A stretch of 35,174 nt of DNA, from assembly GCA_031292145.1 (NCBI GenBank), contig JARLHR010000247.1, positions 1 to 35,174 on the forward strand, written 5' to 3'. The first letter of the stretch is position 1. Each line of letters starts with the position of its first letter. The stretch comes from Clostridium sp. GTDB lineage: Bacteria > Bacillota > Clostridia > Clostridiales > Clostridiaceae. Position numbers and translations under genes: made by a program. Below, piece after piece: positions 1-31,652 of the stretch. Under the pieces are notes generated by a model. It made no database searches. It saw nothing but the letters and a program-made list of their open reading frames with translations, and had not been told where the DNA came from.

Positions 1-151
1 AGGTTCTTAGTACAAGGTTGTACCATTTACTGCTTGTCAAAATTTTATATTTGGATCATGCAGAAATGGGCACAACCTTGTGCTTAGAACCTTCCAGTGG
101 AAATTTCATAGTCCTGTGGAACAAAAATGTATGGAATTTCGGTAGGATATC
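1..151 (+). repeat. Long-palindrome element, copy 1 (left part cut by window start)
   Basis: The window opens inside a large hairpin-forming element. The inner arms (1-29 and about 64-92) pair as AGGTTCTTAG...CTTAGAACCT and ACAAGGTTGT...ACAACCTTGT. The conserved right flank follows (CCAGTGGAAATTTCATAGTC, then AACAAAAATGTAT and a TTTCGGTA end). The same plan occurs at 9552-9737 (inverted), 9899-10085 and 31401-31588. The loop arms (TGCTTGTC / GGATCATGCA) are more decayed than in the other copies. The outer left arm lies outside the window. Beyond the element, CACATAAGTCTAAGTTCA is shared with the copy near 31590. Confidence 0.8.
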
Positions 152-187
152 ACATAAGTCTAAGTTCACATTTGGATATCTATACAA

Positions 188-253
188 TAAAAGTATGCTG
201 TTACAGCTTGTCCTAAGTTTTCTTAGGACAATAATTGTAATAGCATACTTTTA
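188..253 (-). terminator. Large hairpin, probable terminator of the minus-strand cell-wall protein gene
   Basis: TAAAAGTATGCT (188-199) pairs with AGCATACTTTTA (242-253). A perfect inner stem GTCCTAAG/CTTAGGAC (210-217 and 222-229) closes a TTTT loop. Read on the minus strand, the stem ends in a T-rich stretch just beyond the stop codon at 286, as expected for a rho-independent terminator. It may also act on the plus strand. Confidence 0.7.
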
Positions 254-285
254 TATTAAGTGAAACTAGTTAGTGATATTTGGTA

Positions 286-1323
286 TTACTTTTCTAATTT
301 AAAAAGAGCTCCGTTTAATAAAGCATAATGTACTTCTTCATTGTTTTTATTAGTTGTAGTATAAATAGTTGCATTTGCACTAACTCCGTTATAGTTTAAA
401 TTAGTAGAAACGCTTGTAACCGTATTACCAGATGCACCTACATTATACTTATTATTAAAATCTGAAGTAGTCATAGTACCTTCAGTAATAGAAGTAGCAG
501 GAATGTCAATGTCCTTGTACTCGATTGATTTATCTTTGATTGTTAATTGCTTTCCTACAAACGAAGATGTTAGGTCAGTTGATAAGTTTCCATTATTTGA
601 AACGCAGTCTCCAACGGTCCAAGTTCCATATAAGTTTTTAGAATATGATGTTGTACTGCTTGAACTAGAACCGCCTGATCCACCAGAACCACCTGATGAA
701 CCACCTGAACTGCTTGATGTAGTAGAACCAGTACTAGTTGTTGCAGTTGAAGTAGTGGATGTAGTTGTAGAAGCTGTAGTATTAGTAACTGTAGTATTAG
801 ATGTAGCTTCTGAATTTACTTTTTCACCAGTTGTAGCAAAGGTATAATTTACACCGTTAATTGTAACATTTCCAGTTTTCATTGCTCCAGATTCACTTAA
901 GTAATAAGTTTTGCCATTTATGTCAGCTAATCCAGTTTGCATAGCGCCTGATGAATTTAAGTAATACCAAGCACCATTATCAAGTAACCATCCAGTTGCC
1001 ATAGAACCTGATGAATTAGTATAGTACCATTTACCGCCATCGTTAACCCATCCAGTTTTCATTTCTCCAGAAGGTGCTAGGTAATACCATGCAGTGCCAT
1101 CATTAACCCATCCAGTTTGCATATTTCCGTCAGAATTAAAGAGGTACCATTGTCCATCTACTGATTTCCAGCCTGAAACATAACTATCCCCTTCAGTGTA
1201 GCTCCAATTACCGCTGTTTGATTGTCTCCAAGCGGCTGATGCTCCAGTTGGCAATACAGCTATTGAAGCTACAACTGCCACAGCCATCAATGTAAATAAC
1301 TTTTTAAGTTCAAATTTTTTCAT
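286..1323 (-). CDS. Secreted cell-wall-binding repeat protein
   Basis: This 345-residue exported protein has a clear signal peptide at residues 1-30 (KK-rich start, hydrophobic core, ASA cleavage site). Residues about 31-168 are tandem aromatic/glycine repeats of the type TGWVNDGGKWYYTNSSGSM, the CW_binding_1 (choline-binding-like) repeat that in Firmicutes tethers proteins to cell-wall polymers. A Ser/Thr/Gly linker follows (about 169-229). The C-terminal domain of about 115 residues (from YGTWTVGDC) I do not recognise; its beta-rich look and opening GTW recall small lipocalin-like folds, but this is weak. The start ATG follows GGGAGTG at good spacing. The repeat half closely matches the protein at 3736-4746 while the C-terminal domains differ, so the two are paralogues with exchanged effector domains. 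A role at the surface with the adjacent polysaccharide locus is an inference. Confidence 0.85.
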   Translation of the reverse strand: MKKFELKKLFTLMAVAVVASIAVLPTGASAAWRQSNSGNWSYTEGDSYVSGWKSVDGQWYLFNSDGNMQTGWVNDGTAWYYLAPSGEMKTGWVNDGGKWYYTNSSGSMATGWLLDNGAWYYLNSSGAMQTGLADINGKTYYLSESGAMKTGNVTINGVNYTFATTGEKVNSEATSNTTVTNTTASTTTSTTSTATTSTGSTTSSSSGGSSGGSGGSGGSSSSSTTSYSKNLYGTWTVGDCVSNNGNLSTDLTSSFVGKQLTIKDKSIEYKDIDIPATSITEGTMTTSDFNNKYNVGASGNTVTSVSTNLNYNGVSANATIYTTTNKNNEEVHYALLNGALFKLEK

Positions 1324-1650
1324 TTTAACACTCCCTATATAGTATATTATTAGTCAACATTATATTTTATTGGAAAAGTAACTGCATAAAATTTCGACTT
1401 CATAATATAATTTACCATGATAATTGGAAAATTTCAAAGAAATTATGAATAATTTGCAAGTGTAAATATAATTTTATTTTGTATACATTTTCATTGTAAA
1501 TCTGTGAAAGTCAATGAAAATAACGCAAAAAATATTGTAATTAAAGGTTAAATACTATAATATAATCATATGTAGGTTTTAATTTCCAATAGAAGTATTA
1601 TATTCATAATTTAAAAATACTACACATTCATAATATTGAAAGGGGATATG
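1324..1650. other. Divergent intergenic region between two secreted-protein genes
   Basis: This AT-rich spacer separates the minus-strand cell-wall protein gene from the plus-strand secreted-protein gene, so it must hold two promoters. I can point to a plausible -10 for the right gene (1556-1561) and a TATAAT-like minus-strand hexamer at 1359-1364 for the left gene. I see no clear repeat, structured RNA or small coding frame. Confidence 0.5.
1535..1566 (+). promoter_or_regulatory. Candidate promoter for the 1651 gene
   Basis: Two overlapping TATAAT hexamers (1556-1561 and 1561-1566) lie about 85 bases before the start codon. The best -35 candidate is TTGTAA at 1535-1540, but its spacing (15 or 20 bases) is not ideal. 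The -10 is convincing by sequence; the full promoter is tentative. Confidence 0.4.
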
Positions 1651-2289
1651 ATGAAAATGAAAATGAAAAAATTATTATCAACAGGAGCGATTGGACTTGC
1701 GTTAGCTTGCGTTACATCTGTTGGAGCTTCAGCAGCTGTTATACCAAGTAATGCTGATTTAATAAATATAGCTGTAAAGCAATATGAAAATGGTACAAAT
1801 CCAGTAGGTGTATTATCAGGAGTTGATAAGAATACTAAAATTAGTTCTATTTTTAGTCAAGAGGTTTTAGATGCAGTTGATTCTGAACTTTCTGGTTATC
1901 AATCTGCAGATACACTTGTGACAAAAATTGATAACAATAAAGATAATACAGTAGCAACTGTTATAAATAAGATTATTGCAGATGAAGCGACGTTCACTAA
2001 ATTCCAAAATAAATTTGTGGAAATTGCACAAAAGGTGCAAGCTATTGATAATAAAGTTGGAGCTGATAGAATAGCAGCAGAAGACAAAGTTGTCGATATA
2101 GTAAAAGCATATGATTCAAGTTTTGATGTTACTTTTGGTAAAGATTATCAAGGTAAGACCACCGCGTCTATATCAAAAGGTGGAAGTGTTGTAATTCAAC
2201 TTAACTCTGATAATTTACAAACAATTATTGATAGAGTTAACAGTATAACTTGGGAACAAGTTAGTGCTGCTAAATTATTATTAAAATAG
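1651..2289 (+). CDS. Small secreted protein of unknown function
   Basis: The protein is about 212 residues long. It opens with MKMKMKKLL and a hydrophobic segment ending GASAA near residue 29, a standard Sec signal peptide. An in-frame TTG lies at 1636, but AAGGGG at 1640-1645 overlaps that reading and fits the ATG at 1651 (or 1648) as a Shine-Dalgarno sequence, so I start at 1651. The mature part is mostly predicted helical and charged, with a final beta-like segment (KTTASISKGGSVVIQL); no known domain is apparent. There is a Cys in the signal core (ALAC), but the lipobox is poor, so a lipoprotein is unlikely. The next gene begins two bases after its stop, implying co-expression and probably a shared job at the envelope. 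Confidence 0.75.
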   Translation: MKMKMKKLLSTGAIGLALACVTSVGASAAVIPSNADLINIAVKQYENGTNPVGVLSGVDKNTKISSIFSQEVLDAVDSELSGYQSADTLVTKIDNNKDNTVATVINKIIADEATFTKFQNKFVEIAQKVQAIDNKVGADRIAAEDKVVDIVKAYDSSFDVTFGKDYQGKTTASISKGGSVVIQLNSDNLQTIIDRVNSITWEQVSAAKLLLK

Positions 2290-2291
2290 GA

Positions 2292-3656
2292 ATGAATAAA
2301 GCAAAAAAATGCATTTCTAATATCATTGAAATAGCACTAGCGTTTAGTATTGTACTAGCAATATTATCTATATTTCTCAAGTGCGTTATTTTTAACAAGT
2401 ATACATATACAAGTATGCTCGATAAAAATAATGTTTATGGGCAAGTTAAAGATGCAGTATATGAGAAAATAGATGCTGCATTAAAAGCTAAGAATATTGA
2501 TTATGATATTAAGGGAGACATATTAACAGAAGATGATATAAAAAGAGAAGCAGATAGTGCAATTACTGGAATTATAGAGTATTTGGAAACTGGTGAAAAT
2601 AACGTAAAGCCAATAGATACTCAGGTATATAAGCAAAGGGTTGCAGATATTTTGCATTCTACTATAGAGAATATTATAAAACCAACTGATAAAGAAGTAT
2701 CTTTTAATGATAACTTAAACATTAAAAATACAGCATGTTTTGTAAGCAAACCTCAGGTTAATGAAATGGTGTTTGTTAAAAAAAATCTGCAAGTTGGACA
2801 AGATGCCTTAGAAGTAGAAAGATTAATGACAAAAGATGAAGCAGAAGCTAAGGTGAGAGAACTGTTAAAGCAAAAAGGTTTAACAGAAGAACAAGCAATT
2901 GAAAAGGCACAGAAAAAAGGCATAACAGAAGAACAAGCATTGAAAATATTGGCTGGTTACGGTATAACAATCGATGATCAACCCAAAGAAAATGATACTA
3001 AAAATGAAGCCCAAAATGATACTTCAAGTAACAACAAAAGTCAATTAGACGATAATGGTACTTCTTCTATACAGAATAATAGCAATAATAATACTACAGG
3101 AAATTATGCTAATGAAGCAGCCTCAAATAGTAAAGAAGAAGGTTCAACAGCAGATAAAAGTGCCCAAAGTGCTAAAAGTAAGTTAGATATGCTGGAAAAC
3201 AAACTGATTGATGAAGCAAATAGCAGCATCGAAAAGGAAGTTGAAAAAATAGACATAAATAAAATATTAGAATCTAATAAAGTTGAAAAACTTGCAAAAA
3301 TAACATCAATAATTTATAAAATGTTTTGGTTATTTATGATTTTACCTATAATTTTTATGGCAATATTGATAAGTATAAATAGGAAAAATTTAAGTTATGG
3401 ATTAAAACAAATAGGAAGAGCTTTTTTATCAGTAGGGTTAATTTTATCTTTAATATTTGTTGGTGTTTATGTTTTTAAAGTTTACGAAAAAATTAATGTT
3501 GGTCCAGTTTACTTTAAAGAAGTAATTTCTTATGCCATAAAATATTTTTCGGCAGTTTTGGCGGAGTATGGGATTATAACAGTCTCGATAGGTATGCTTA
3601 TGTTTATGCCTATGATTATAAGAAAGTGGAAAACTAGGCGAAAAATTATTACTTAG
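2292..3656 (+). CDS. Multi-pass membrane protein with large extracytoplasmic domain
   Basis: This 454-residue protein has one transmembrane helix near the N-terminus (about 9-33) and three at the C-terminus (about 338-361, 377-397, 420-443), with a large soluble region between. That region has an ordered part to about 225, including two short helical repeats of the form LTEEQAIEKA / ITEEQALKIL, then an Asn/Ser/Lys low-complexity stretch (about 230-290) and a helical return (295-335). I do not recognise the family. The ATG lies two bases past the upstream stop with only a weak TAGGA before it, so translation is probably coupled to the secreted protein gene. The location between two cell-wall-binding proteins and an exopolysaccharide locus suggests an envelope role; no catalytic motif is visible. 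Confidence 0.75.
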   Translation: MNKAKKCISNIIEIALAFSIVLAILSIFLKCVIFNKYTYTSMLDKNNVYGQVKDAVYEKIDAALKAKNIDYDIKGDILTEDDIKREADSAITGIIEYLETGENNVKPIDTQVYKQRVADILHSTIENIIKPTDKEVSFNDNLNIKNTACFVSKPQVNEMVFVKKNLQVGQDALEVERLMTKDEAEAKVRELLKQKGLTEEQAIEKAQKKGITEEQALKILAGYGITIDDQPKENDTKNEAQNDTSSNNKSQLDDNGTSSIQNNSNNNTTGNYANEAASNSKEEGSTADKSAQSAKSKLDMLENKLIDEANSSIEKEVEKIDINKILESNKVEKLAKITSIIYKMFWLFMILPIIFMAILISINRKNLSYGLKQIGRAFLSVGLILSLIFVGVYVFKVYEKINVGPVYFKEVISYAIKYFSAVLAEYGIITVSIGMLMFMPMIIRKWKTRRKIIT

Positions 3657-3735
3657 TAAAATCATTTATTAAATTAGGATTTATAGGTAATAGAATAGTT
3701 AAAATAGCGAGATTATTAAGGAGGGTAATATAATA

Positions 3736-4746: not shown

Positions 4747-4840
4747 AATCTAATAAAATAAGCATTTATATGATGGATTGGTATTAATTATTCAGAATCA
4801 ACATATAACTGTATTTCATTCATTTTTTTGAATATGTTTT

Positions 4841-4904
4841 AAGGCACATGAAAGAAAATAGTAGACCAAGCGTACTGATCTGTTATTTTCTTGATTATGC
4901 TTAA
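4841..4904 (+). repeat. Short inverted-repeat element (AAGGCAYATG family)
   Basis: The left end AAGGCACATGAAAGAAAATA and right end TTGATTATGCTTAAG are imperfect inverted repeats of about 10 bases around a body of about 45 bases that contains a GACCA-CGTACTGA core. Related copies lie near 5005, 13824, 14797, 22011 and 26232. No coding frame is present, so it is MITE-like or a mobile palindrome. Confidence 0.65.
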
Positions 4905-4906
4905 GT

Positions 4907-4941
4907 AAAGCAGTAAGAATACAAAATATTCTTACTGCTTT
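4907..4941. terminator. Strong hairpin terminator, likely bidirectional
   Basis: AAAGCAGTAAGAATA (4907-4921) pairs perfectly over 15 bases with TATTCTTACTGCTTT (4927-4941) around a five-base loop. It separates the cell-wall protein gene from the exopolysaccharide operon. The T-tract is short, so attenuation and not full termination is possible. Confidence 0.75.
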
Positions 4942-5004
4942 ATTAACGTATAAGGGGAAATATAAAATTTTTAATATTGCATAAAGAAGAACTTTTTGCA
5001 GATA

Positions 5005-5063
5005 CTAAGGCATATGAAAGAAAATATACTAGTATGCTGACTTATTATTTTTAAAATATGCAA
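5005..5063 (+). repeat. Short inverted-repeat element (AAGGCAYATG family)
   Basis: A second copy begins TAAGGCATATGAAAGAAAAT and ends TTTTTAAAATATGCAAAA, with the family core (ACTAGTATGCTGACTTATTA). It lies about 40 bases ahead of the first exopolysaccharide gene and would be in its leader if transcription starts upstream. Confidence 0.65.
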
Positions 5064-5103
5064 AATTAAAAGGTGAAAAATAGTGTTGTGGAGAGTTTGA
5101 GAA

Positions 5104-5796: not shown

Positions 5797-5809
5797 AGGG
5801 GATAATGTT

Positions 5810-6544: not shown

Positions 6545-6559
6545 TAAGTAGGAGTAAAT

Positions 6560-8554: not shown

Positions 8555-9025
8555 ATGGAGATATGTAATAACGAAATGAAGATATGTTTTGTAACATCAA
8601 GTGGAGGTCATTTAACACATCTAATGCAATTGAAGGAATGGTGGAAGGACAAGGACAGATTTTGGGTTACTTTTGATAAGGAAGATTCAAGATCTATATT
8701 AAATGATGAACGTAAATATTGGTGCTATTTCCCTACTAACAGAAGCATTAAAAATCTTATTAAAAATACATTTTTATCAATAAAAGTATTGCTTAAGGAA
8801 AAACCAGATTTAATTATTAGTACGGGGGCTGCACCTGCTATACCATTCTTTTATATAGGGAAATTATTAGGTGCAAAAGTAGTTTATATAGAAGTATATG
8901 ATAGAATTGATAAACCGACTATAACAGGAAAACTAGTTCATCCAATAAGTGATTTATTAATATTACAATGGGAAGAACAAAAGAAATTCTATTCTAAAGG
9001 CCAAGTTATAGGAGGGATATTTTAA
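8555..9025 (+). CDS. Alg14-like glycosyltransferase subunit (PssD/CpsF type)
   Basis: This 156-residue protein resembles the N-terminal half of a GT-B fold. It has the SSGGHL loop near residues 15-20, the STGAAPAIPF segment near 89-98, and a membrane-associating stretch. In this family the protein anchors and activates a separately encoded catalytic partner, here the next gene, to add the second sugar (often beta-1,4-galactose) to the lipid-linked first sugar. GGAGG lies nine bases before the ATG. Its stop and the next start overlap (TAATG), which ensures equal synthesis of the two subunits. Confidence 0.9.
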   Translation: MEICNNEMKICFVTSSGGHLTHLMQLKEWWKDKDRFWVTFDKEDSRSILNDERKYWCYFPTNRSIKNLIKNTFLSIKVLLKEKPDLIISTGAAPAIPFFYIGKLLGAKVVYIEVYDRIDKPTITGKLVHPISDLLILQWEEQKKFYSKGQVIGGIF

Positions 9026-9510
9026 TGATATTTGTAACTGTAGGAACACACGAACAAGGATTAGATAGATTACTAATAGAGCTTGACAGGTTAGTAGAAA
9101 CAGGAGAAATAAAACATAAGGTATTTGCTCAAATAGGATACAGCAACTATATTCCTAAAAATTATGAATATAAAAAATTACTAGGCTATGATGAAATGGA
9201 GTCATATGTAAGCAAGAGTGATATAGTCATAACCCATGGTGGCCCAGGAAGTATATTTCAAGCATTACAGTATAATAAAGTGCCAATAGTGGTACCAAGG
9301 AATCCAGAATTTAAGGAACATGTTGATAATCATCAAATACTTTTTACAAAAAGACTAGAAAATTCAGATAAAATTATAGCAGTATATGATATTGGTGAAT
9401 TGGCGTCTAAAATTAATAATCATAAAGAATTGAGTTTAAAATGCAAAATTGATAATTCTGGAAAAGATAATTTTATCAGAAGTTTTGATAAATTGATTGT
9501 TAGATTATAA
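9025..9510 (+). CDS. Alg13-like catalytic glycosyltransferase subunit (PssE/CpsG type)
   Basis: The 161-residue partner of the preceding protein is the C-terminal half of the GT-B fold. It starts MIFVTVGTHEQGLDRL and carries the nucleotide-sugar-binding block VITHGGPGSIFQAL followed by VPIVVPRNPEFKEHVDNHQ, both typical of Alg13/PssE. It starts on the last base of the upstream stop codon, so translation is coupled. The specific sugar is unknown; a beta-1,4-galactosyl transfer is the common activity of such pairs. Confidence 0.9.
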   Translation: MIFVTVGTHEQGLDRLLIELDRLVETGEIKHKVFAQIGYSNYIPKNYEYKKLLGYDEMESYVSKSDIVITHGGPGSIFQALQYNKVPIVVPRNPEFKEHVDNHQILFTKRLENSDKIIAVYDIGELASKINNHKELSLKCKIDNSGKDNFIRSFDKLIVRL

Positions 9511-9551
9511 TTTACCGCTAGAGATATTAAATATGAAGTCTATACTTAACC

Positions 9552-9737
9552 GAAATTAGATACATGTTTATTTCGCAAGAATATGAAAATTGCGCTGAAA
9601 GCACTAAGCAGAAGGTTGCATCCACTTATGCTTGCTCCAAATATTCATTTAGACAAGCATAAGTGGAACAACCTTCAGCTAAGTGCTTTTGACAGCTCAT
9701 TTTCAAATGCTTGCTGCACAAACATGTATCTAATTTC
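9552..9737 (-). repeat. Long-palindrome element, copy 2 (inverted)
   Basis: The outer arms GAAATTAGATACATGTTT (9552-9569) and AAACATGTATCTAATTTC (9720-9737) pair perfectly over 18 bases. Inside, the family order is kept when read on the minus strand: a CATTTGAAAATGAGCTG block, a variable stem with GGTTG/CAACC, a TGCTTGTC/GGAGCAAGCA tip, and the CAGCGCAATTTTCAT block. The arm sequences differ from those of the copy at 9899-10085 yet pair with each other. Confidence 0.85.
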
Positions 9738-9898
9738 TTTGTTTGGATATGCTTTTAAGTTGAAATAACTGAGAAAATTATCTAAATTTAAGTGAATTGC
9801 TGCAGTAGAAATAAGTAACATATTGTACTCCGATTTCTCGTCCAGTAAATGTATATATATATATCCCTTTATAAGACTTTGAGTGCACATCTATACCA

Positions 9899-10085
9899 GA
9901 AATCAAATACATTTGTGTGAAACAGGCATTTGAAAATTTCGATGCTAAAAGCACTTAGAGGTAGGTTGTTCCACTTTTGCTTGTCCGATCGAATGATTGG
10001 AGCAAGCTAAAGTGGGTGCAACCTACCTCTTAGTACTTTCAGCGAAATTTTCATAGTCCTGTGGAACACAAATGTATTTGATTTC
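9899..10085 (+). repeat. Long-palindrome element, copy 3 (best preserved)
   Basis: The 20-base outer arms (9899-9918 and 10066-10085) are perfect complements, GAAATCAAATACATTTGTGT on the left. Further matched blocks follow inward: ACAGG/CCTGT, GAAAATTTC/GAAATTTTC, GCT/AGC, AGAGGTAGGTTG/CAACCTACCTCT, CCACTTT/AAAGTGG and GCTTG/CAAGC. A loop of about 12 bases closes the hairpin. Small internal loops fall at the same places as in the other copies. Confidence 0.88.
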
Positions 10086-10165
10086 GGTAGATTGCATTAT
10101 ATTTACATAGAAATTTACTTTGTGGGAAATAATTTAAATAGAAATTTAATTTAGAGGAGTAAGCA

Positions 10166-14796: not shown

Positions 14797-14894
14797 TTAA
14801 GGTCTATGAAAGAAAATAGTCTAGCATGCTGACCAAGGCACAATCAAAAAAATAATAGACCAGCATGTGCCGTATTATTTTTGAATATTCCTGA
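14797..14894 (+). repeat. Nested short inverted-repeat element
   Basis: The outer copy starts TTAAGGTCTATGAAAGAAAA and ends TATTATTTTTGAATATTCCT. Within it lies a second left end (from 14835) that is identical over 23 bases to the tail of the BY-kinase gene, followed by GACCAGCATGTGCC. One element has apparently inserted into, or been duplicated inside, another. It fills the gap between two GT2 genes. Confidence 0.65.
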
Positions 14895-16942: not shown

Positions 16943-18145
16943 ATGAAGATAAATATAAAACATATAAGTAATACCTTTAATTATGGCAGCTGCATGATGG
17001 CTATAACATTAATATCAAAAATTAATGAAAATGTTGAGAATGTTGATTTTTATGTAGATGCAGCTAGTGATATAGATTTAGAAATATTAAAAATGGAAAC
17101 GAATATTAATAATATCCTTAGAGATAATGTAGAACGCAGCGATAATTTTATAAAAAAGTGCATAAATAAATTAAAACGAATTAAACTAAATAAGATTGTA
17201 GAAAAAATAAATACTGTGATTGTTATTGGTGGAGACGATATATCTGAATATTACGGAATAGAATATTTGGAAAAAGAATTGTATCGGCTAAGAGAAGAAA
17301 GTAAAAGCAAAAATATAATTTTATTAGGACAAACCATGGGACCGTTTACTGGAAATAGAGGTCGGCTTGCTATGGAAAGTCTTAAAAATACTAAAATTTA
17401 TACTAGAGATAATAAGTCATTAGATTATTTATTAGGACTTAGTTTTAAGAATGTAAGAGCAGGCAGAGATTTAGCTTTTTATAAATTACCTATGCAATTT
17501 ATGGCTAAGAGCATATTAAATAAATATAACATAAATAAAGAAGAATACATTACTATTGTTCCTTCAGGGTTAACTAAATGTTACACGAAAAATTTTGAAA
17601 AGTACATTGTAGAGCAAGTAAACATAACAAAAAAAATATTAGATAATCATAAGTTAAGTGATAAGAAAATAGTATTTTTACCACATGTATTAATTCCTGA
17701 ACACGTAGATGACCGATTGATCATCAGAGAAATAGTTAATAGATTAGATGAAAAATCTAAGATGAGAATTATTCCTATTGATGATGCAATGTTACCATCA
17801 GAGGCAAGAGAAATTTTAGGTAATGGTATATTTACAATAACAGGTAGAATGCATGCGGCAGTATCAACTTTTTATATGAGAAAACCAGCTATCTCATTAT
17901 CGTATAGTGTAAAGTATGCGGGGGTAATTGGTGAGGGGTTAGATATGAATGAATTAGTTATTGAATCTGCTGATGAAAAGTTATGGAACAGTGGAGACAT
18001 AAGTAAACTTGCAGATGAAAAAGTTAATTTTGTTTTAGATAATTATGATGAAATAGTTAAAAAAATAGATATCAAAGTTTCAGAAACTATCAAGATAGTA
18101 GAAGAAGAATTAGAGGATGTAGTATGTAAAATAAGTAAGAAGTAA
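16943..18145 (+). CDS. Polysaccharide pyruvyl transferase family protein
   Basis: This 400-residue protein of the CsaB/WcaK family transfers pyruvate from phosphoenolpyruvate to form a ketal on a sugar. Visible hallmarks are NTFNYGSCMM near the start (10-19), VIVIGGDDISEYYG (92-105), GQTMGPFTG (129-137), FLPHV (245-249) and GRMHAAVS (301-308). AAGGAG lies ten bases upstream of the ATG, and only three bases separate the gene from the GT2. The extreme C-terminus (ISKK) and the stop codon are made of the 7-bp repeat run that continues downstream. Pyruvylation would make the polymer acidic and could create a ligand for wall-binding domains. Confidence 0.87.
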   Translation: MKINIKHISNTFNYGSCMMAITLISKINENVENVDFYVDAASDIDLEILKMETNINNILRDNVERSDNFIKKCINKLKRIKLNKIVEKINTVIVIGGDDISEYYGIEYLEKELYRLREESKSKNIILLGQTMGPFTGNRGRLAMESLKNTKIYTRDNKSLDYLLGLSFKNVRAGRDLAFYKLPMQFMAKSILNKYNINKEEYITIVPSGLTKCYTKNFEKYIVEQVNITKKILDNHKLSDKKIVFLPHVLIPEHVDDRLIIREIVNRLDEKSKMRIIPIDDAMLPSEAREILGNGIFTITGRMHAAVSTFYMRKPAISLSYSVKYAGVIGEGLDMNELVIESADEKLWNSGDISKLADEKVNFVLDNYDEIVKKIDIKVSETIKIVEEELEDVVCKISKK

Positions 18146-18197
18146 GAAGTAAGAAATAAGAAGTAAGAAGTAAGAATTGAGAATTGACAATTAAGGG
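18135..18197 (+). repeat. 7-bp tandem repeat run (GTAAGAA) entering the 3' end of a gene
   Basis: Nine consecutive 7-base units run GTAAGAA x3, ATAAGAA, GTAAGAA x2, TTGAGAA, TTGACAA, TTAAGGG. The first two units are coding and supply the stop codon of the pyruvyl transferase gene at 18143-18145. No opposite arm is obvious here, unlike the runs near 24117 and 24757. Confidence 0.85.
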
Positions 18198-18263
18198 GAA
18201 AAGGCTTTATGAAAATATTTGTTAAAAATCCCTTTTAATATTTGAATTTGGAGTTGCAATATT

Positions 18264-22006: not shown

Positions 22007-22010
22007 AGTG

Positions 22011-22067
22011 TTAGGCACATGAAAATGGCCTGGCAAATGGACTTGTTATTTTTTTGAATGTGCCTTA
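22011..22067 (+). repeat. Short inverted-repeat element (AAGGCAYATG family)
   Basis: TTAGGCACATGAAAATGGCC on the left and TTATTTTTTTGAATGTGCCT on the right form inverted ends (AGGCACAT/ATGTGCCT) just after the stop codon of the iron-sulfur protein gene. The core is the shortest of the set. It may double as a transcript end, although its T-run lies within the arm. Confidence 0.65.
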
Positions 22068-22144: not shown

Positions 22145-24109
22145 ATGTGTTTACTAGAGCTAAAAAATGTTAGTAAGTACTATAAATTGAATATAAAAGA
22201 TAAATTTTATGCACTGAATCATATTAATCTGAATTTTAATAGAGGTGAATTAGTATCTGTTATTGGAGAATCGGGCAGTGGAAAATCTACATTAATGAAT
22301 TTGATTGGAGGATTAGACTCTAATTATTCTGGAGAAATAATTGTAGATAAAAAAGATCTTAATAAATTTAAAAAAATAGAACTTGATAGATATAGAAAAA
22401 ATAAAATTGGATTTGTTTTTCAAAGCTTTAATTTAATATCACATTTATCTGTTTTGGATAATGTAACAATAGCCATGACTTTATCCAATGTTAGAAAAAA
22501 GGAACGAATTAAGCGTGCAAAAGAAATATTGACTGAACTCGGATTAATAAACCATATGAATAAAAGACCCAATCAATTATCAGGAGGTCAAAAGCAAAGG
22601 GTTGCTATTGCAAGAGCTTTAGTTAATGATCCTGAAATAATTATTGCTGATGAGCCTACAGGCAGTTTAGATTCTAAGACATCCATGCAGGTATTGGAAG
22701 TATTGAAGGATATTGCTCAAAGTGGAAAGCTTGTAATCATGGTTACTCACTCTGAAAAGGTAGCCGCTTGTTCCAGTAGAGTAATTAGAATAGCAGACGG
22801 TAAAATAATTGAGGATAATGAAATTTATAAATTAGAGAGCAGCTTTGATGAAGAAAAAACTAATGTAAATAAAAAAAGGCAAAAATTAAGTATTATATCA
22901 GCTATTATGCTGGCTCTTATTAATATGAAAAAGAAATCAATACGTAATATACTTATTTCAATTGGAGCTAGCATTGGAATAATGGGAGTTATTTTAATGC
23001 TATCCTTTGGTAATGGGGTTAAATCATATTTTAACAATACTATGAACAGTTATGTTAATCCCTTAGTGGTAGAAGTTAATATGCCTAGCAATGATCAGGA
23101 AACCGTTAATTTAGATGTTACTGCCATACAAAAACCACAGATTAATAATCAAAATTCATTTGAAGATAAGGATATACAGGCTTTATCTAATATAGAAAAT
23201 GTGTCATCCGTAGAAAAAGGTTATGATATAATTTCTATGGGGGTTAATTCTTTAACTTATAATGGTCAAACAAGTGATTTAATGCGTATTTCAACTATAT
23301 CATCAAATATAATAAGTTCAAATATTCAAGAAGGGACTTTGCCTAAAGAAGGTGAAGTATTAATTAATAAGTCTGCAAGCGATAAGCTTGGAGGTGATGT
23401 AATTGGGAAAAAAGTTAGTATGCATATTTTAGTAAATCAAAAAATTTTAGATAAAGATTTTACTGTAAGTGGAATTTATACTGCAGTTGGCGCAGATTTA
23501 ACTGCAATAATGAAATCTGCTTTTTTGAATTATTCAGATTTAGAAAAATTATATTCAGATAATGGCTATACATTAAAACCAAATGCGGTTTATCTTAATA
23601 CAAAAAGTGATAAAAATACAGCTGGAATTAAAGATAAGGTTAAGGAACTTGGATATGTAGTGTCTTCCCAAGAGGAAATGACAAAATTATTTGATCAAAT
23701 GATAAGCATTTTAACATATGTATTATCAGGAGTTGCAGCAATATCTTTAGTAGTATCAGCAATTATGATAATAGTAGTAATGTATATTAGTGTTGTAGAA
23801 AGAACAAAGGAAATAGGAATAATTAAAGCCATTGGTGCAAGGAGAAAAGATATAAGAAGGATTTTTGTTTGCGAAGCATTTTTAATTGGAGTCTTTAGCG
23901 GTATTATAGGAGTGGCATTTGCATTTTTTCTAATGCGAGGTATAAATATTATGTCAAATAGATTGTTTAAGATTAATTTAGTTTTAATAAAAAAATCTTA
24001 TGCGGTATTTGGCGTAGTAGTAAGTGTTGTTATAAGTACATTGTCTGGATTATTGCCAGCAAATAAAGCTGCTAAGCTTGATCCGGTGGAATCTTTAAGG
24101 AGAGAATAG
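22145..24109 (+). CDS. MacB-like ABC exporter, fused ATPase and permease
   Basis: The 654-residue protein joins an ATPase domain (residues 1-230: Walker A GESGSGKST at 41-49, Q-loop VFQSFN, signature LSGGQ at 145-149, Walker B IIIADE at 165-170, switch His201) to a MacB/FtsX permease. The permease has one helix (about 268-288), a large extracytoplasmic domain and three helices in the last 130 residues. The family couples ATP hydrolysis to extracytoplasmic work or to export of peptides and lipids, commonly antimicrobial resistance in Firmicutes. AAGGTGA precedes the ATG. It is not a typical polysaccharide exporter (Wzx covers that step), so membership in the locus is uncertain. Promoter not identified. 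Confidence 0.88.
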   Translation: MCLLELKNVSKYYKLNIKDKFYALNHINLNFNRGELVSVIGESGSGKSTLMNLIGGLDSNYSGEIIVDKKDLNKFKKIELDRYRKNKIGFVFQSFNLISHLSVLDNVTIAMTLSNVRKKERIKRAKEILTELGLINHMNKRPNQLSGGQKQRVAIARALVNDPEIIIADEPTGSLDSKTSMQVLEVLKDIAQSGKLVIMVTHSEKVAACSSRVIRIADGKIIEDNEIYKLESSFDEEKTNVNKKRQKLSIISAIMLALINMKKKSIRNILISIGASIGIMGVILMLSFGNGVKSYFNNTMNSYVNPLVVEVNMPSNDQETVNLDVTAIQKPQINNQNSFEDKDIQALSNIENVSSVEKGYDIISMGVNSLTYNGQTSDLMRISTISSNIISSNIQEGTLPKEGEVLINKSASDKLGGDVIGKKVSMHILVNQKILDKDFTVSGIYTAVGADLTAIMKSAFLNYSDLEKLYSDNGYTLKPNAVYLNTKSDKNTAGIKDKVKELGYVVSSQEEMTKLFDQMISILTYVLSGVAAISLVVSAIMIIVVMYISVVERTKEIGIIKAIGARRKDIRRIFVCEAFLIGVFSGIIGVAFAFFLMRGINIMSNRLFKINLVLIKKSYAVFGVVVSVVISTLSGLLPANKAAKLDPVESLRRE

Positions 24110-24116
24110 CTAAGTG

Positions 24117-24238
24117 GTGAGAAGTAAGGGGTAAGAGGTAAGAAGTAAGGGTTAAGAGGTAAGAAGTATAAGTATAAAAACTCGAAGAGTTTTATCCATA
24201 ACTCTTACCTATTAACTATTAACTCTTACCTCTTAATT
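24117..24238. repeat. Heptad repeat element with central hairpin
   Basis: The left arm is a chain of 7-base units (GTGAGAA, GTAAGGG, GTAAGAG, GTAAGAA, GTAAGGG, TTAAGAG, GTAAGAA) from 24117. The right arm (about 24199-24238) carries the complementary units (CTCTTACC, TATTAAC x2, TCTTACC, TCTTAA). Between them sits a perfect hairpin, ATAAAACTC GAA GAGTTTTAT. The element begins eight bases after the ABC gene stop codon. Confidence 0.8.
24177..24194. terminator. Central hairpin of heptad element, possible terminator
   Basis: AAAACTC-GAA-GAGTTTT with flanking A/T pairs makes a compact stem with a three-base loop and ends TTTTAT. It lies between two converging genes (the ABC exporter and the small minus-strand gene) and could stop transcripts from both. 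It is short and has low GC, so efficiency is uncertain. Confidence 0.45.
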
Positions 24239-24468: not shown

Positions 24469-24474
24469 TCTCAT

Positions 24475-26172: not shown

Positions 26173-26182
26173 TAATTATCAT

Positions 26183-26211: not shown

Positions 26212-26231
26212 ATAAACAAAAGTTAATATAT

Positions 26232-26396
26232 TTAAGGCATATGAAAGAAAATAATAAGTCCATGATGCTATGTATATTTCCTGTCAGACAAGGAAGTATT
26301 TTTGCCTCATAGTGGGCCTATTAGGTAAAAATGCTGACGCAGTATGACTGGAAATAGACTAGCATGCTGACTCATTATTTTTTTGAATATGCCTAA
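26232..26396 (+). repeat. Expanded short inverted-repeat element in the iscR leader
   Basis: The outer ends are TTAAGGCATATGAAAGAAAA and TTTTTTTGAATATGCCTAAA. Unlike the short copies, the middle contains an extra nested palindrome: TATTTCC/GGAAATA (26275-26281 and 26350-26356) around GTATTTTTGCCT/AGGTAAAAATGC (26296-26307 and 26323-26334, two wobble pairs). The whole element can fold into one long stem. It occupies most of the space between the promoter and iscR. Confidence 0.75.
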
Positions 26397-26416
26397 AAAT
26401 ACAAAGAGGTGAAAGA

Positions 26417-26869
26417 ATGAAACTTTCAACTAAAGGAAGATATGGAGTTAGAGCTATGGTTGATTTAGCATCTAACTATGGCGGTGCCCCAGTTTCAATA
26501 AAGACTATATCGAAAAGAGAAAATCTTTCAGAATATTATTTAGAACAATTATTTAGTCCGCTTAGGCGTGCTAATGTTATAAGAAGCATAAGAGGCGCAC
26601 AAGGTGGATATATTTTATGCAAACCGCCTAGCGAAATAACTGTAGGAGATATAATGACTATTTTAGAAGGGCCTATTGAAATAGCAGATTGTATTGACGG
26701 TGTTGAATGCGATAGTGCAGATTGCTGTGCAACTAAAGCGGTATGGGAAAAAATAAAACATAGTATAGATAGTGTTATGAATTCAATAACATTACAAGAT
26801 ATACTTGATGATCACGAAGCGCTTCAAAAGAAAAATAGTGGCATTAAGATTGCAGATAGGAGTGAATAA
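26417..26869 (+). CDS. iscR: Rrf2-family iron-sulfur cluster regulator IscR
   Basis: The 150-residue winged-helix regulator starts MKLSTKGRYGVRAMVDLA, with the Rrf2 recognition segment SEYYLEQLFSPLRRANVIRSIRGAQGGY. Cys92, Cys98 and Cys104 match the three cluster ligands of E. coli IscR (a fourth Cys at 103 is extra). It senses Fe-S status and normally represses its own operon, here nifS-nifU-mnmA. GAGGTGA precedes the ATG. The nifS-like gene starts three bases after its stop codon region, so the operon is tight. Confidence 0.93.
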   Translation: MKLSTKGRYGVRAMVDLASNYGGAPVSIKTISKRENLSEYYLEQLFSPLRRANVIRSIRGAQGGYILCKPPSEITVGDIMTILEGPIEIADCIDGVECDSADCCATKAVWEKIKHSIDSVMNSITLQDILDDHEALQKKNSGIKIADRSE

Positions 26870-26871
26870 TT

Positions 26872-28053
26872 ATGAAAAATGTATATATGGACTATTCAGC
26901 TACAACTTATGTTAGACCTGAAGTTCTAGAAGAAATGCTTCCTTATTTTACACAAAAGTTTGGAAATCCATCTTCATTTTATGGAATATCAAGAGAGACT
27001 AAAAGAGCTATAGATAAAGCAAGGGAACAAGTTGCAAAGGCATTAAATTGTTTACCAGATGAAGTATATTTTACAGGTGGCGGATCAGAAGCTGATAACT
27101 GGGCAATAAAAGGAATAGCATCAGCTCATAAGAATAAAGGAAACCACATAATAACAACTAAAGTGGAACATCATGCAGTTCTTCATACTTGTGAGTATTT
27201 AGAAAAGAATGGCTTCGAAGTTACATATTTAGATGTAGATGAAGAAGGTTTTATTAGATTAGAAGATTTAAAAAATGCCATAACTGATAAAACAATTTTA
27301 GTTAGCATTATGTTTGCTAACAATGAAATAGGGACAATTCAACCAATAAAAGAAATTGGTGAGATTTGTAAGGAAAAGAAAATTTTCTTCCATACTGATG
27401 CAGTTCAAGCAGTTGGAAATATACCTGTAGATGTTAAAGAAATGAATATAGATATGTTATCATTAGCAGGTCATAAGGTTTATGGACCAAAAGGTATTGG
27501 AGCTTTATATATAAAGAAGGGAATTAAGATAGATAACTTAATTCATGGCGGAGGCCAAGAAAAAAATAGAAGAGCAGGAACAGAGAATATTGCATCCATC
27601 GTAGGTATTGGAAAAGCACTTGAACTTGCTACAGAAAATTTAGAAGAACATATGAAGAAATTAACAGTGCTTAGAGATAAGTTAATGGATGGGCTTTTAA
27701 AAGTTCCATATACTAGATTAAATGGACCAAGAGGAGATAAGAGGTTACCTGGAAATGTAAATGTATGTTTTAAATTTATTGAAGGTGAATCAATTCTTTT
27801 ATCTTTAGATTTTAAAGGGGTTTGTGCATCAAGTGGTAGTGCGTGTACATCAGGGTCTTTAGATCCATCTCATGTATTACTTGCAATTGGACTTCCACAT
27901 GAAATTGCTCATGGATCATTAAGATTATCAATGGGTGAAGGGTCAACAGAAGAAGATGTGGATTATGTTCTTGAAGTTGTTCCGCCAATTATTGAAAGAT
28001 TAAGAAATATGTCACCATTATGGGATGACTTTTTAAAGAAAGGGGAAAAATAA
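26872..28053 (+). CDS. nifS: Cysteine desulfurase (IscS/NifS family)
   Basis: The 393-residue PLP enzyme removes sulfur from cysteine for Fe-S cluster assembly and tRNA thiolation. Sequence hallmarks are DYSATTYVRPEV (7-18), GGGSEADNWAIKG (69-81), HHAVLH, HTDAVQAVG (174-182), the PLP lysine Lys202 in SLAGHKVYGPKG, and the catalytic Cys325 in SSGSACTSG. It sits directly between iscR and the scaffold gene and upstream of mnmA, so it probably supplies both partners. Clostridial copies are often called NifS or IscS without nitrogen-fixation meaning. Confidence 0.94.
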   Translation: MKNVYMDYSATTYVRPEVLEEMLPYFTQKFGNPSSFYGISRETKRAIDKAREQVAKALNCLPDEVYFTGGGSEADNWAIKGIASAHKNKGNHIITTKVEHHAVLHTCEYLEKNGFEVTYLDVDEEGFIRLEDLKNAITDKTILVSIMFANNEIGTIQPIKEIGEICKEKKIFFHTDAVQAVGNIPVDVKEMNIDMLSLAGHKVYGPKGIGALYIKKGIKIDNLIHGGGQEKNRRAGTENIASIVGIGKALELATENLEEHMKKLTVLRDKLMDGLLKVPYTRLNGPRGDKRLPGNVNVCFKFIEGESILLSLDFKGVCASSGSACTSGSLDPSHVLLAIGLPHEIAHGSLRLSMGEGSTEEDVDYVLEVVPPIIERLRNMSPLWDDFLKKGEK

Positions 28054-28054
28054 T

Positions 28055-28492
28055 ATGATATATACAGAAAAAGTAATGGATCATTTCCAAAATCCAAGAA
28101 ATGTTGGAGAAATAGAGGATGCTAATGGTGTTGGTGAAGTTGGAAACGCTAAGTGTGGAGATATAATGAAAATCTACTTAAAGGTTGAAGATAATATCAT
28201 AAAGGATGTTAAATTTAAAACTTTTGGCTGTGGATCTGCTATTGCTTCATCATCAATGGCAACTGAACTTATTAAAGGAAAAACTATTGATGAAGCTTGG
28301 GGGCTAACAAACAAAGCAGTTGCAGAAGCATTAGATGGTCTTCCACCAGTAAAAATGCACTGTTCAGTGTTAGCAGAAGAAGCAATTCATAAGGCTATAA
28401 ATGATTATAGAGCTAATAACGGTTTAGAAGTAATACCAATGGAAGAGCATAGTGATGAAGATTTACATGCTGCTGTACATGGAGAAGAATAG
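28055..28492 (+). CDS. nifU: Iron-sulfur cluster scaffold (NifU N-terminal/IscU type)
   Basis: The 145-residue scaffold protein on which clusters are built has FQNPRNVG (11-18), Cys34 in NAKCGD, Cys59 in [12 protein letters not shown] and Cys103 in [10 protein letters not shown], the three conserved ligand cysteines. The Asp at 36 typical of the first motif is present. It has only the U-type domain, with no NifU middle or C-terminal domain. It begins one base after the desulfurase stop codon, and mnmA follows eight bases on. Confidence 0.94.
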
Positions 28493-28500
28493 GAGAATTT

Positions 28501-29577
28501 ATGAAGAAAAAAGTTTTAGTAGGTATGAGCGGTGGTGTAGATAGTTCTGTTGCGGCATATTTATTAAAACAGCAGGGATACGAAGTCATTGGTGCTACAA
28601 TGCAAATTTGGCAGCAAGATAATGACTTTCAAGAAAGAGAAGGGGGCTGCTGCTCCCTTTCTGCTGTTGATGATGCTAGAAGAGTATGCGACAAACTTGA
28701 TATACCATTTTATGTTTTGAATTTTAGAGATTATTTCAAGGAAAAAGTTATTGATAAGTTTGTTCAAGAATACATAGATGGAAGGACGCCAAACCCTTGT
28801 ATTGAATGTAATAAACATTTAAAATTTGATGAACTTCTAAGAAGAGCAAGAGGTATAGGTGCTGATTATGTGGCTACAGGTCATTATGCTAAAATTGAAA
28901 AGAGTGATGATAGATATCTTTTAGTTAGATCTGATGATGATAGGAAAGATCAAACTTATGCTTTGTATAATTTTACACAAGACCAATTGGAACATACATT
29001 GATGCCTTGTGGAGAATATGAAAAGACAAGAATAAGGGAAATAGCAAAAGAAATAGGTCTTGCTGTTCATAATAAAAAAGATAGTGAAGAAATTTGTTTT
29101 ATTCCTGATAATAATCACGGAAGATATATTTTAGAGGCAAAACCTGATAGAGTAAAGCCAGGTAACTTTGTTGATAAAGATGGTAATGTACTTGGAAAGC
29201 ATAAGGGGATTGTGTATTATACTATAGGTCAAAGAAAAGGACTTGGACTTTCTCTTGGAAGACCAGTATTTGTAACAAGCATAAATCCTAGAACTAATGA
29301 AGTTGTATTAGGTGCTGAGGAAGATATATTTAAAACAGATTTAATTGCAACAGATGTTAATTTTATACCTTTTGATAAGCTTGAAAAGGAAATGGAAGTC
29401 AAAGCAAAAGTTAGATATTCTGCAAAGCCAGCAGAGGCAGTATTAATTCCAATGAGCAATGGGAAAATTAAAGTTTCCTTTAAAGAAAAACAAAGGGCAA
29501 TAACCAAAGGTCAATCAGTTGTATTTTATGATAATGAAATAGTTGTTGGTGGCGGAATAATTGAAGAGATAATATAG
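28501..29577 (+). CDS. mnmA: tRNA-specific 2-thiouridylase MnmA
   Basis: The 358-residue enzyme adds sulfur to U34 of Lys, Glu and Gln tRNAs using ATP and sulfur relayed from a desulfurase. It has the PP-loop GMSGGVDSS (8-16), the nucleophile Cys100 in TPNPCIECN and the second catalytic Cys199 in SEEICFIP, then [18 protein letters not shown] and the C-terminal beta-barrel. AGGAG overlaps the end of the scaffold gene region. It is the last gene of the operon before a terminator, and its place after nifS points to that enzyme as the sulfur donor. Confidence 0.95.
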
Positions 29578-29582
29578 GTTAT

Positions 29583-29622
29583 AAAAAAGCTGAGAGGTGT
29601 GTAGATACTCTTGGCTTTTTTT
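29583..29622 (+). terminator. Terminator of the isc-mnmA operon
   Basis: AAAAAGCTGAGAG pairs with CTCTTGGCTTTTT (two G-T wobbles) around a loop of about 10 bases and runs into a T-tract. It starts five bases after the mnmA stop codon. Confidence 0.85.
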
Positions 29623-29706
29623 AATTAATAATTCATCTGAATAATTTTCCTCTTAATGGATAGCATATAAACATTCCGAGTTGTATTGCTATTTTGGAGG
29701 TGTATA

Positions 29707-30207
29707 ATGTTTAAAACAAGGGATTTTTATTTTAAAAAAGTTTATAATGTTGATGGTAAAAAGGTTGGTATAATAGAAGACTTGTATATAGATTTCCATT
29801 TGGGAAAAGTTCTTGGTTTTAAGATATCTAATAGTCGTCTATTCGCAAAAAATAATTATGTGGATATGCAGGATGTTGTAGATATTGGGGAGGATATTAT
29901 AATAGATTCAATAAGGAAGGGCACTGGATTAACATTTAAGGAAATAAAGTATTTGGAGATTATTGATACATTAGGTGATGTTAGAGGTGTTTTAGAAGAC
30001 ATTATGATAGATATAAAGGATTATTCAATAAAAGCTATAGTAATAAGTTCAGGACTGCTAGACAAAATGATAAAAGGTAAGCAAATTATTCTTTTAAATA
30101 AATGTATACTAGGGGAAAAGTATATATTATATTCAGGAAATCAAGGTGTTTTATTTAAAACAATACCACATAATATGGAGAATTATAATGCAACTAAGAA
30201 AGCATAA
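29707..30207 (+). CDS. PRC-barrel domain protein
   Basis: This 166-residue protein has two PRC-barrel-like units: residues about 1-65 (FKTRDFYFKKVYNVDGKKVGIIEDLYIDFHLGKVLGFKIS) and about 80-150 (LEIIDTLGDVRGVLEDIMIDIKDYSIKAIVIS). PRC barrels are small beta-barrels used in RNA processing, photosystem assembly and sporulation-linked proteins (YlmC/YmxH type); the role here is unknown. An in-frame TTG at 29686 exists, but GGAGGTG at 29696-29702 selects the ATG at 29707. It overlaps the permease gene by 20 bases, so the two are co-expressed. Confidence 0.85.
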   Translation: MFKTRDFYFKKVYNVDGKKVGIIEDLYIDFHLGKVLGFKISNSRLFAKNNYVDMQDVVDIGEDIIIDSIRKGTGLTFKEIKYLEIIDTLGDVRGVLEDIMIDIKDYSIKAIVISSGLLDKMIKGKQIILLNKCILGEKYILYSGNQGVLFKTIPHNMENYNATKKA

Positions 30208-31216
30208 AAGAGCAATCTTATTAGGCGTAATCATATTATGTTTCATAGTATTTGTATTAGCTTACTTTTTAAATAAATCAATTAATACAATTGTAAATGT
30301 TATTTTTATATCTTTTATTTTGGCGTATACTTTAGGTCCTATTAGAGATGCATTTAAAACAAAGTTTAAGGTGAGTAAACGAGCAGCTTCTATCTTGGTC
30401 ATACTTTTAATAATTGGTATTTTTACTTCTTGTATAATAGTCATAGTTCCTGCTTTGTTTAAAGAAATAGCTAATATAAGCAATATATTTGGGAGCATAA
30501 GTAAATTTATGGATGGGCTATTACAAAAGAGTAAATTAAATAATCTTATATTAACTAACACAGTATATAATGAAATTTTAGAAAAAGGAAATGAAATTTG
30601 GATGAGATTTTCAGAAAATACTGTAGATAATTTAATCAGGATTAGTGATAATATCATGTCCCTTGCAATAATACCTATTGTTATTTATTATTTTCTTTGT
30701 GATGGAAATAAAATATATAATAAGATATTATTATTATTACCAACGGAAAAAAGAGGATTGACTAAAAAATTTTTAAGCGATATAGACAGAGTGTTAACAA
30801 GGTATATAACAAGTCAATTATTATTATCAGGTGTAATAGGTATATTAACTTTCATTATACTATTAATACTAAAGGTAAAATTCCCATTATGGATCTCTAT
30901 TTTAAATGCAATACTAAATATAATACCGTATTTTGGCCCGATATTTGGTGCGATTCCAGCAGTTATAGTGGCACTTTTAGATTCACCTGTAAAAGCCCTT
31001 TGGGTAATTGCCGGAATGTTTATAATTCAGCAGTTAGAAGGAGATATTTTAGCTCCAAAAATAACAGGGGACAGCACCGAAATGCATCCCCTTGTAATAG
31101 TAATTTTGCTCCTTATAGGCGATAAATTTGGAGGATTTATCGGAATGGTAATAGTAGTTCCAATAGCAGTTATTATAAAGGTTCTATATGATGATATAAA
31201 TTATTATTTGTTTTAA
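30188..31216 (+). CDS. AI-2E family transporter-like membrane protein
   Basis: The 342-residue protein belongs to the AI-2E / PerM / YtvI family. It has paired N-terminal helices, a long amphipathic middle region (about 95-145), and a C-terminal helical block with the conserved LNIIPYFGPIFGAIPAVIVAL, QQLEGDILAPKITGDSTEMHPLVIVI and GDKFGGFIGMVIVVPIAVIIKV. Members are proposed transporters or ion antiporters; the substrate is not known from sequence. The frame opens earlier (30146), but GGAG at 30177-30180 supports the ATG at 30188. It is commonly found near alaS in clostridia, as here. Confidence 0.88.
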   Translation: MQLRKHKRAILLGVIILCFIVFVLAYFLNKSINTIVNVIFISFILAYTLGPIRDAFKTKFKVSKRAASILVILLIIGIFTSCIIVIVPALFKEIANISNIFGSISKFMDGLLQKSKLNNLILTNTVYNEILEKGNEIWMRFSENTVDNLIRISDNIMSLAIIPIVIYYFLCDGNKIYNKILLLLPTEKRGLTKKFLSDIDRVLTRYITSQLLLSGVIGILTFIILLILKVKFPLWISILNAILNIIPYFGPIFGAIPAVIVALLDSPVKALWVIAGMFIIQQLEGDILAPKITGDSTEMHPLVIVILLLIGDKFGGFIGMVIVVPIAVIIKVLYDDINYYLF

Positions 31217-31652
31217 ATTATCATATGGATGTTGCATAAATAATAATTAATCATAATTTGATAATTTCTACAAGGCGTTGAAGGATAAAAATTTATTACA
31301 AATAACTGCCTGTTATCCATATAGATAGGCAATTGGTATATTGATTTATTGGTGAAATATATACGCTCATTTACCAGATGTCAAGTGTGTATCTTCACTA
31401 GAAATTAGAAATATTTTTGTGTAGTAGGCATTTGAAAATGAGCTGCTAAAGGTTCTTAATGACTGGTTGTTCCATTTATGCTTGTCTGAATCTTGCATTT
31501 GGAGCAAGCATAAATGGGCACAACCAGTCATTTAGAACCTTCCAGCGAAATTTTCATAGTCCTACGTAACAAAAATATTTCTGATTTCGGTAAGTTGCCA
31601 CATAAGTCTAGGTTCAGTACCGAGGATATAGGGCTGAAGATAAAGTTGAATA
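31217..31652. other. Intergenic region with long palindrome before the alaS promoter
   Basis: The region starts with a weak long-loop stem (AAATTATCA/TGATAATTT) and an imperfect TGCCT/AGGCA hairpin (31307-31331), neither a clear terminator. It then holds the fourth long-palindrome element (31401-31588). A short coding frame from 31514 is only the palindrome's right arm read through. Confidence 0.6.
31401..31588 (+). repeat. Long-palindrome element, copy 4
   Basis: The outer arms GAAATTAGAAATATTTTTGT (31401-31420) and ACAAAAATATTTCTGATTTC (31569-31588) pair with one wobble. Inner matched blocks are GAAAAT/ATTTTC, GCT/AGC, AAGGTTCT/AGAACCTT, AATGACTGGTTGT/ACAACCAGTCATT, CCATTTATGCTTG/CAAGCATAAATGG. 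The AATGACTGG stem replaces AGAGGTAGG of copy 3 with both arms changed together. Confidence 0.88.

Follow-up and report, generated by a model that had tools for sequence, protein, structure and literature searches.

Four long palindromes lie in a contig of 35,174 nucleotides from a Clostridium sp. genome, and their arms change together: the stems differ from copy to copy yet pair inside each copy. This raises the question of whether the palindromes are selected for a folded RNA or DNA or are kept symmetrical by arm-to-arm correction through template switching, the two readings put forward in the original prediction, which had been made from the letters of the contig alone. The window analyzed here is this whole contig (C153 of the assembly called G000, 6.34 Mb, 95.85% complete; other genomes, contigs, and sequence stretches carry G, C, and L numbers). 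It is very probable that the palindromes are the cores of miniature inverted-repeat transposable elements (MITEs) of the IS630 type, belonging to a group of Clostridium with large genomes, C. beijerinckii among them, and that their stems are under paired change, with the fold of one strand being kept and hairpins being exchanged between copies.

For the alignment of the fold, 170 unique hits were reduced to 131 full-length copies, which together form one long hairpin with 80 pairs. Among the 10425 pair cells of this alignment, 9455 were Watson-Crick, 531 were G·T, 109 were A·C, and 330 were other combinations. Covariation was judged against a phylogenetic null that keeps the tree and the substitutions of each column, using a script of our own that imitates R-scape. 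The alignment held 181 double Watson-Crick changes versus 11.9±3.0 under the null (60 simulations, maximum 25), and when partners were slid out of register, only 1 to 5 double changes were counted. At least one double change was found in 54 of the 80 pairs. In an enlarged set (223 unique sequences, reduced to 161 full-length copies, 142 of those with 400-bp flanks), 208 double changes were distributed over 124 branches, and 176 of them stood alone, not in tracts. The irregularities of the hairpin were also kept. An interruption of the form G-N-A/G-N-A is kept at columns 21-23 and 164-166 (columns 21, 23, 164, and 166 conserved in 125 to 129 of the 131 copies), the block CATTTGAAAAT/ATTTTCATAGT is nearly invariant, and a T·T mismatch at 57/132 is retained (T in 125 and 128 of the 131), as are several bulges. 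The T·G pair 31-157 was present in 122 of 124 copies; the T·G pairs 70-119 and 71-117 were in the majority and not fixed (89 and 85 of 131, with T-A in 32 each).

One-sided changes distinguished the two strands. In the 161 copies, a Watson-Crick pair became G·T 205 times and A·C 110 times, compared with 80 and 117 corresponding changes in unpaired columns (Fisher p 6e-8), and the same direction was seen in 37 copies of a second hairpin type, type B (54 G·T versus 24 A·C; unpaired, 31 versus 36; p 0.007). On terminal branches the G·T:A·C counts were 83:45 for the 88 copies with an abutting convergent gene and 61:34 for the 54 without one, i.e., the same ratio. A superseded count, made on a structure with fewer pairs, had given 40:17 on internal and 139:68 on terminal branches. 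The family shows two marks of a structured RNA family, covariation beyond the phylogenetic null and a strand-specific tolerance of G-U. Together, the covariation, the fixed irregularities, and the G·T bias suggest selection on one folded strand.

The palindromes are not the entire element. The flanks of many copies showed them to be the cores of larger elements with outer ends TATAGATAnnCAA...GACTTAT and the mirror image, about 31 bp each; these terminal inverted repeats end in TA. Thirteen end-to-end elements in genome G059 measured 176 to 312 bp, and nine of these, of type A, to which the window copies belong, measured 281 to 312 bp; the predicted size of about 187 bp holds for the hairpin core and falls short of the whole element. 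A stretch of about 45 to 60 bp is present on the left side and none on the right, and the element therefore has a direction. Several of the G059 elements form chains in which adjacent members share one TA.

A search of 15 genomes for the DDE_3 family gave matches in 8 of them (7 above the cut-off), and the match in G059 (C1, 2124049-2124489) lay directly beside element ends. In this genome, L232:332-1531 is a 1200-bp insertion sequence (IS) with two overlapping open reading frames (ORFs). The first has HTH_33/winged-helix domains and scored 80 bits with the IS630 transposase model, below the cut-off of 100; the second matched DDE_3 (94.6 bits) and scored 107.3 bits with the IS630 model, above the cut-off. 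When aligned, the ends of this IS were those of the small elements. The IS is joined via a shared TA to a complete type A element that comes after it, and before it lies another element whose near end is degenerate. Three DDE_3 matches at contig ends of G034 also adjoin such ends. The small elements have no transposase of their own, for which 176 to 312 bp is too short; none of the forward frames of the hairpin was free of stops in more than 1 of the 161 copies, and these short frames were not searched against families. Because their ends are common to the elements and an IS630-family IS of a relative, they are assigned to the IS630-derived MITEs. In a separate observation, one reverse frame of the type A hairpin was stop-free in 54 of the 161 copies, compared with 0 to 5 copies for each of the five remaining frames. 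From these sequence relationships, we infer that an IS630 transposase moves the elements in trans, probably by cut-and-paste at TA.

Mobility was examined by comparing ten 20-kb stretches from the closed genome G008 (5.55 Mb) with ten from the closed genome G059 (5.88 Mb); collinear blocks of the two are mostly 88 to 99% identical. Three sites (L265:5505-5821, L271:3104-3671, and L281:1028-1468) were occupied by one or two elements in only one of the two strains, and the junctions between filled and empty sites fell at the element ends. Two more such differences were listed (L269:1479 and L271:18752), and another candidate empty site was messy, with different repeats there in each strain. The original suspicion that this is not a plain intergenic repeat was well founded: it is a mobile-type element with TA-ended terminal inverted repeats and a constrained folded strand.

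What lies between the ends varies. The collected loci gave 191 unique end sequences when up to 2 mismatches were allowed, some of them matches by chance. Of these, 70 had no type A hairpin inside, and part of those 70 contained other long hairpins (types B and C), short hairpins, or almost nothing. Types A, B, and C share by eye an apical motif that reads roughly GTTGTTCC...GCTTGTC...GGAGC..GC...GTGCAAC; type C became inseparable from type A after iteration, and no type C counts are given. At one site (L269:6847 in G008 and L280:14681 in G059), the flanks and both junctions agree between the strains, the right junction being already fused to a gene end in both, and yet one strain has a type A hairpin there and the other a type B hairpin. 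In addition, L237 and L238 have near-identical hairpins and different left ends. Hairpins can therefore move between copies as units, and the replacement of a whole hairpin by another type at a fixed site is shown by one clean case. Such exchange makes the joint change of the arms partly trivial between some copies; it does not do so for the deep covariation. The search for further cases covered 18 element clusters of G008, of which 16 were mapped in G059, 1 was unmapped, and 1 lay at an edge. At five of the 16, the two strains agreed in hairpin type; the rest were empty, different, or complex. Two candidates (L264:6111 and L266:12825) were rejected as exchanges because they look like insertion plus loss, and the type difference at L269:4706 was not readable as a clean exchange, leaving the L269:6847 site as the only clean one among those read. 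At L271:14174, the copies are on opposite strands in the two strains, and L269:15543 also has a hairpin-type difference.

Several other hairpins were noted by the way. A type A hairpin of C. chromiireducens (L135:1211-1440) has, by eye, a small hairpin inserted in both arms at mirrored positions. Type C-like hairpins with an extra block at the tip (CACAGAGAAAGTTC...) occur in L086, L092, and L120, of which L092 belongs to G028, where these ends are otherwise almost absent. A further palindrome of about 100 bp (TATATGGTTCC ... GGAACCCTATA) is present at about 1401-1500 of L231 and in L086, and by eye it adjoins elements at TATA in G059 and G008.

The elements are numerous in their own genome and restricted elsewhere. 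In G000, a 16-base core with up to 2 mismatches gave 180 matches versus 16 in the control, and the genome therefore holds about 160 copies; the exact end pattern gave 95 matches and its reversed-pattern control none. A slightly stricter end pattern was scanned over 68 congeneric genomes and was found in G069 (148), G000 (78), G068 (45), G059 (43), G081 (39), G008 and G034 (25 each), G060 and G072 (20 each), and G027 (11); G030 had 2, and the other 57 had 0 or 1. The pattern was abundant only in large genomes, the nine rich ones besides G000 measuring 5.1 to 6.7 Mb. With a 370-bp query, 9 of 59 genomes matched; besides the own genome the strong matches were in G008, G027, G030, and G034, while a single partial match came from G023, and in G015, G028, and G029 the matches were all short (23 to 34 bp). 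Nothing similar to copy 3 of the window was found in the plasmid and phage collections. Three of 27 stretches from an exact 20-mer search of named genomes (L128, L142, and L144) came from other phyla, were absent from the listed profile hits, and were set aside.

The joint change of the arms could in principle arise without any selection for folding if template switching or hairpin-mediated conversion copied one arm onto the other. Such correction would account for the frequency of double changes and for the matching insertions in both arms of the C. chromiireducens copy. It would, however, erase the 3x3 loop, the T·T mismatch, the bulges, and the T·G pair 31-157, all of which persist, and it predicts no excess of G·T over A·C. 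Most double changes stand alone rather than in tracts, which also argues against it, although a corrected single mutation would stand alone as well. Arm-to-arm correction is therefore disfavored as the main cause, since it would remove mismatches and bulges that are nearly fixed, and we regard it as improbable; of the two readings first proposed, constraint on a folded strand is the one supported. A different account would make the elements purely selfish MITEs that inherited their palindromicity from a few master copies, the hairpin being a functionless by-product. Long stem-loops are described as typical of bacterial MITEs in the passages of PMC2229807 on such elements, hairpins are exchanged between copies here, and many copies decay. 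Against this, the branches of the 161-copy tree that carry double changes are far too many to stem from a few masters, the null is exceeded even though it preserves the tree and the substitutions of each column, and there is the strand bias. This account appears unlikely, if less so than arm-to-arm correction.

The position of the elements brings in a third account, in which the element serves the host and its reverse direction ends or protects the mRNA of the gene adjoining the right end. With convergent ORFs of at least 100 codons and a nominal boundary where the element end was not recognized, 88 of the 142 copies having at least 400 bp on both sides had their right end no more than 60 bp from a convergent 3' end, and 14 had their left end so placed (80 to 6 among discordant copies). 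Type B behaved similarly: of its 34 copies, 20 had such a gene end at the right alone, 3 at the left alone, 2 at both ends, and 9 at neither. Some open frames have their stop codons inside the inverted repeat. In favor of a host function, some sites are, by eye, common to several species. The bias was, however, already present in the shortest-branch quarter of the copies (right 17 versus left 1 of 35), and insertion preference or tolerance may explain it. Moreover, terminator-like sites were found in the reverse strand of only 3 of 161 hairpins (forward, 12 of 161), and the strand bias points to the opposite strand. In the 100 bp outside the left end, a terminator pointing leftward was present in 10 of the 88 copies that adjoin a gene and in 2 of the 54 others; for comparison, terminators followed 33 of 149 element-free genes and 6 of 29 convergent ones. 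Pneumococcal repeats are also known to be enriched between convergent genes, which the passages of PMC3049150 on them read as tolerance; these passages do not mention a one-sided bias like the present one. We consider a host-serving 3' end element a rather doubtful explanation.

Several points weigh against constrained IS630 MITEs as the explanation. One-sided changes to non-pairs (210) were as common as double changes (208), and many copies therefore decay. The parsimony counts and the null rest on one alignment and one tree, and the events are not fully independent, given that the copies are related, that related genomes share some of the sites, and that hairpins are exchanged. A scan for sigma-70-type promoters around one complete copy gave 5 matches, in line with the chance expectation of 4.4 +- 2.1. 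No DDE_3 match was found in the carriers G000, G068, G030, and G027, and those of G008, G060, G067, G069, G072, and G081 have no such ends nearby; the partner is therefore absent or lost in most carriers. The statement that no transposase is near the palindromes agrees with this lack of a DDE_3 domain in the own genome, the window ORFs having not been searched for other transposases. At the three empty sites, the TA duplication was not clean, with TA-rich junctions or some different bases, and G032 and G067, both of 6.1 Mb, lack the ends.

In the model that we favor, nonautonomous elements that share their ends with an IS630-family IS would be moved by its transposase, and between these ends they carry one of several related long hairpins with a common apical motif. 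The stems have changed by paired substitutions while certain loops, bulges, the U-U mismatch, and one G-U pair stayed nearly fixed, and the G·T bias identifies the folded strand as the one here called forward. The element or the host would depend on this folded strand, most likely as an RNA recognized by a protein, which is our best guess for the role of the fold, and recombination between copies also spreads hairpins, as the one clean replacement shows. That this is a transposon family with exchangeable structured-RNA cassettes, in which a forward fold with fixed loops, recognized by a protein of the cell or of the transposon, makes the elements persist and insert one way at gene 3' ends, is a tentative proposal, possible but on balance doubtful. 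The long hairpins of bacterial MITEs are easily taken for by-products of inverted repeats; the present evidence, free of any functional assumption, is that one strand retained its fold while many paired changes accumulated, that a whole hairpin was swapped in place, and that insertion relative to gene ends is strongly one-sided. With many copies, close strains having empty sites, and an IS630 partner, whether MITE folds have any function is directly testable in solvent-producing Clostridium.

The four window palindromes were found where they had been predicted, and the folds reproduced stems that vary among copies and pair inside each one, with interruptions at the same places. The three full copies folded as RNA at -101.6 to -108 kcal/mol (z-scores -15.0 to -15.9; 0 of 200 shuffles folded as well).

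Table. Elements and a possible remnant in the window (positions of the 35,174-nucleotide contig)
Feature	Position	Strand	Remarks
Copy 1, type A element	1..184	+	Left part lost at contig start; profile match 2-143
Copy 2, type A element, inverted	9519..9775	-	Hairpin 9549-9737
Possible type C relative remnant (GTAGAAATAAGTAACATATTGT) between copies 2 and 3	9800..9850	+	By eye; like type C starts elsewhere
Copy 3, type A element	9852..10090	+	By eye, left arm starts near 9852; hairpin 9899-10088
Copy 4, type A element	31320..31631	+	Hairpin 31401-31591

Copy 1 is truncated by the window edge, and its right terminal inverted repeat (154-184) is clear, with the end pattern at 154-182 on the minus strand. 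The right repeat of copy 2 (9519-9549) is degenerate, with 4 mismatches, and a left-arm remnant reaches about 9775 by eye; relative to the 3' end of the convergent ORF at 9025-9510, the hairpin foot lies about 38 nt and the right repeat about 9 nt away. In copy 3, terminal inverted repeats were not recognizable. The left repeat of copy 4 (31320-31350) is weak, inside a 5-mismatch match, and the right one is degenerate (about 31601-31631, by eye). The end repeats of copies 2 and 4 are weak because a scan at 4 to 5 mismatches gives dozens of chance matches within the window; they are supported by their position and by the copy alignment. Contigs starting at or within an element include the window itself (position 1), C17 (96), and C22 (96) of G000, and the assembly therefore seems to be interrupted by these repeats. 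A second dispersed repeat family (TAAGGCAyATGAAAGAAAATA ... ATTATTTTTTTGAATGTGCCT) occurs in the window at 4840-4875, 5006-5041, 14798-14867, 22020-22065, and 26336-26394, and a similar sequence at L265:927-1081 is in one of G008 and G059 and missing from the other. Short AAGTAAG-like repeat runs are present at 18116-18207 and 24105-24182. An Rfam scan of the window at the gathering score gave nothing except a T-box leader (31700-31876), which lies upstream of an 879-amino-acid ORF at 32177-34816, and a scan of one complete element gave mir-5365 as its best match (21.9 bits versus a gathering score of 70).

The element family was not found in the literature searched, which comprised open-licence papers. 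The original statement that no named family has this plan holds insofar as no Rfam family matched at the gathering score; the kind of element is known. REP/RAYT elements are GTAG-tagged short hairpins with a Y1 transposase, and membership in that group is unlikely because of the element size and the DDE partner. The closest system is RUP (repeat unit of pneumococcus), an intergenic repeat of 108 copies proposed to be moved by IS630-Spn1 (PMC2229807, PMC3049150) and, in the passages of PMC2229807, the only bacterial repeat named as having IS-matched ends. RUP and the present elements share terminal repeats that match an IS630-family element, TA ends, and intergenic location, but as described in those passages RUP is simple, 107 bp long, and from another genus, whereas type A elements here measure 281 to 312 bp, and one frame holds several hairpin types with covarying stems, nearly fixed loops, strand polarity, and hairpin exchange. 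Correia/NEMIS and ERIC are likewise TA-ended MITEs with long stem-loop transcripts, but from other hosts, and the passages of PMC2229807 on them mention no compensatory changes. The bcr1-bcr18 repeats of Bacillus cereus, compared by description, are intergenic, with bcr1-bcr3 being MITE-like, and the relevant passages of PMC3446304 report that 84 of 165 bcr copies in one strain and 62 of 155 in another were found in transcripts. YPAL, BOX, and other stem-loop families resemble the present one in high copy number and conserved stem-loops, and BOX is modular as well (PMC2267715, PMC3049150), but in the accounts given there it is built of boxA, boxB, and boxC blocks, whereas here the entire hairpin is exchangeable. 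RUP-type IS630 MITEs are thus already known, and what is new here is the larger, exchangeable, and structurally conserved hairpins that they carry.

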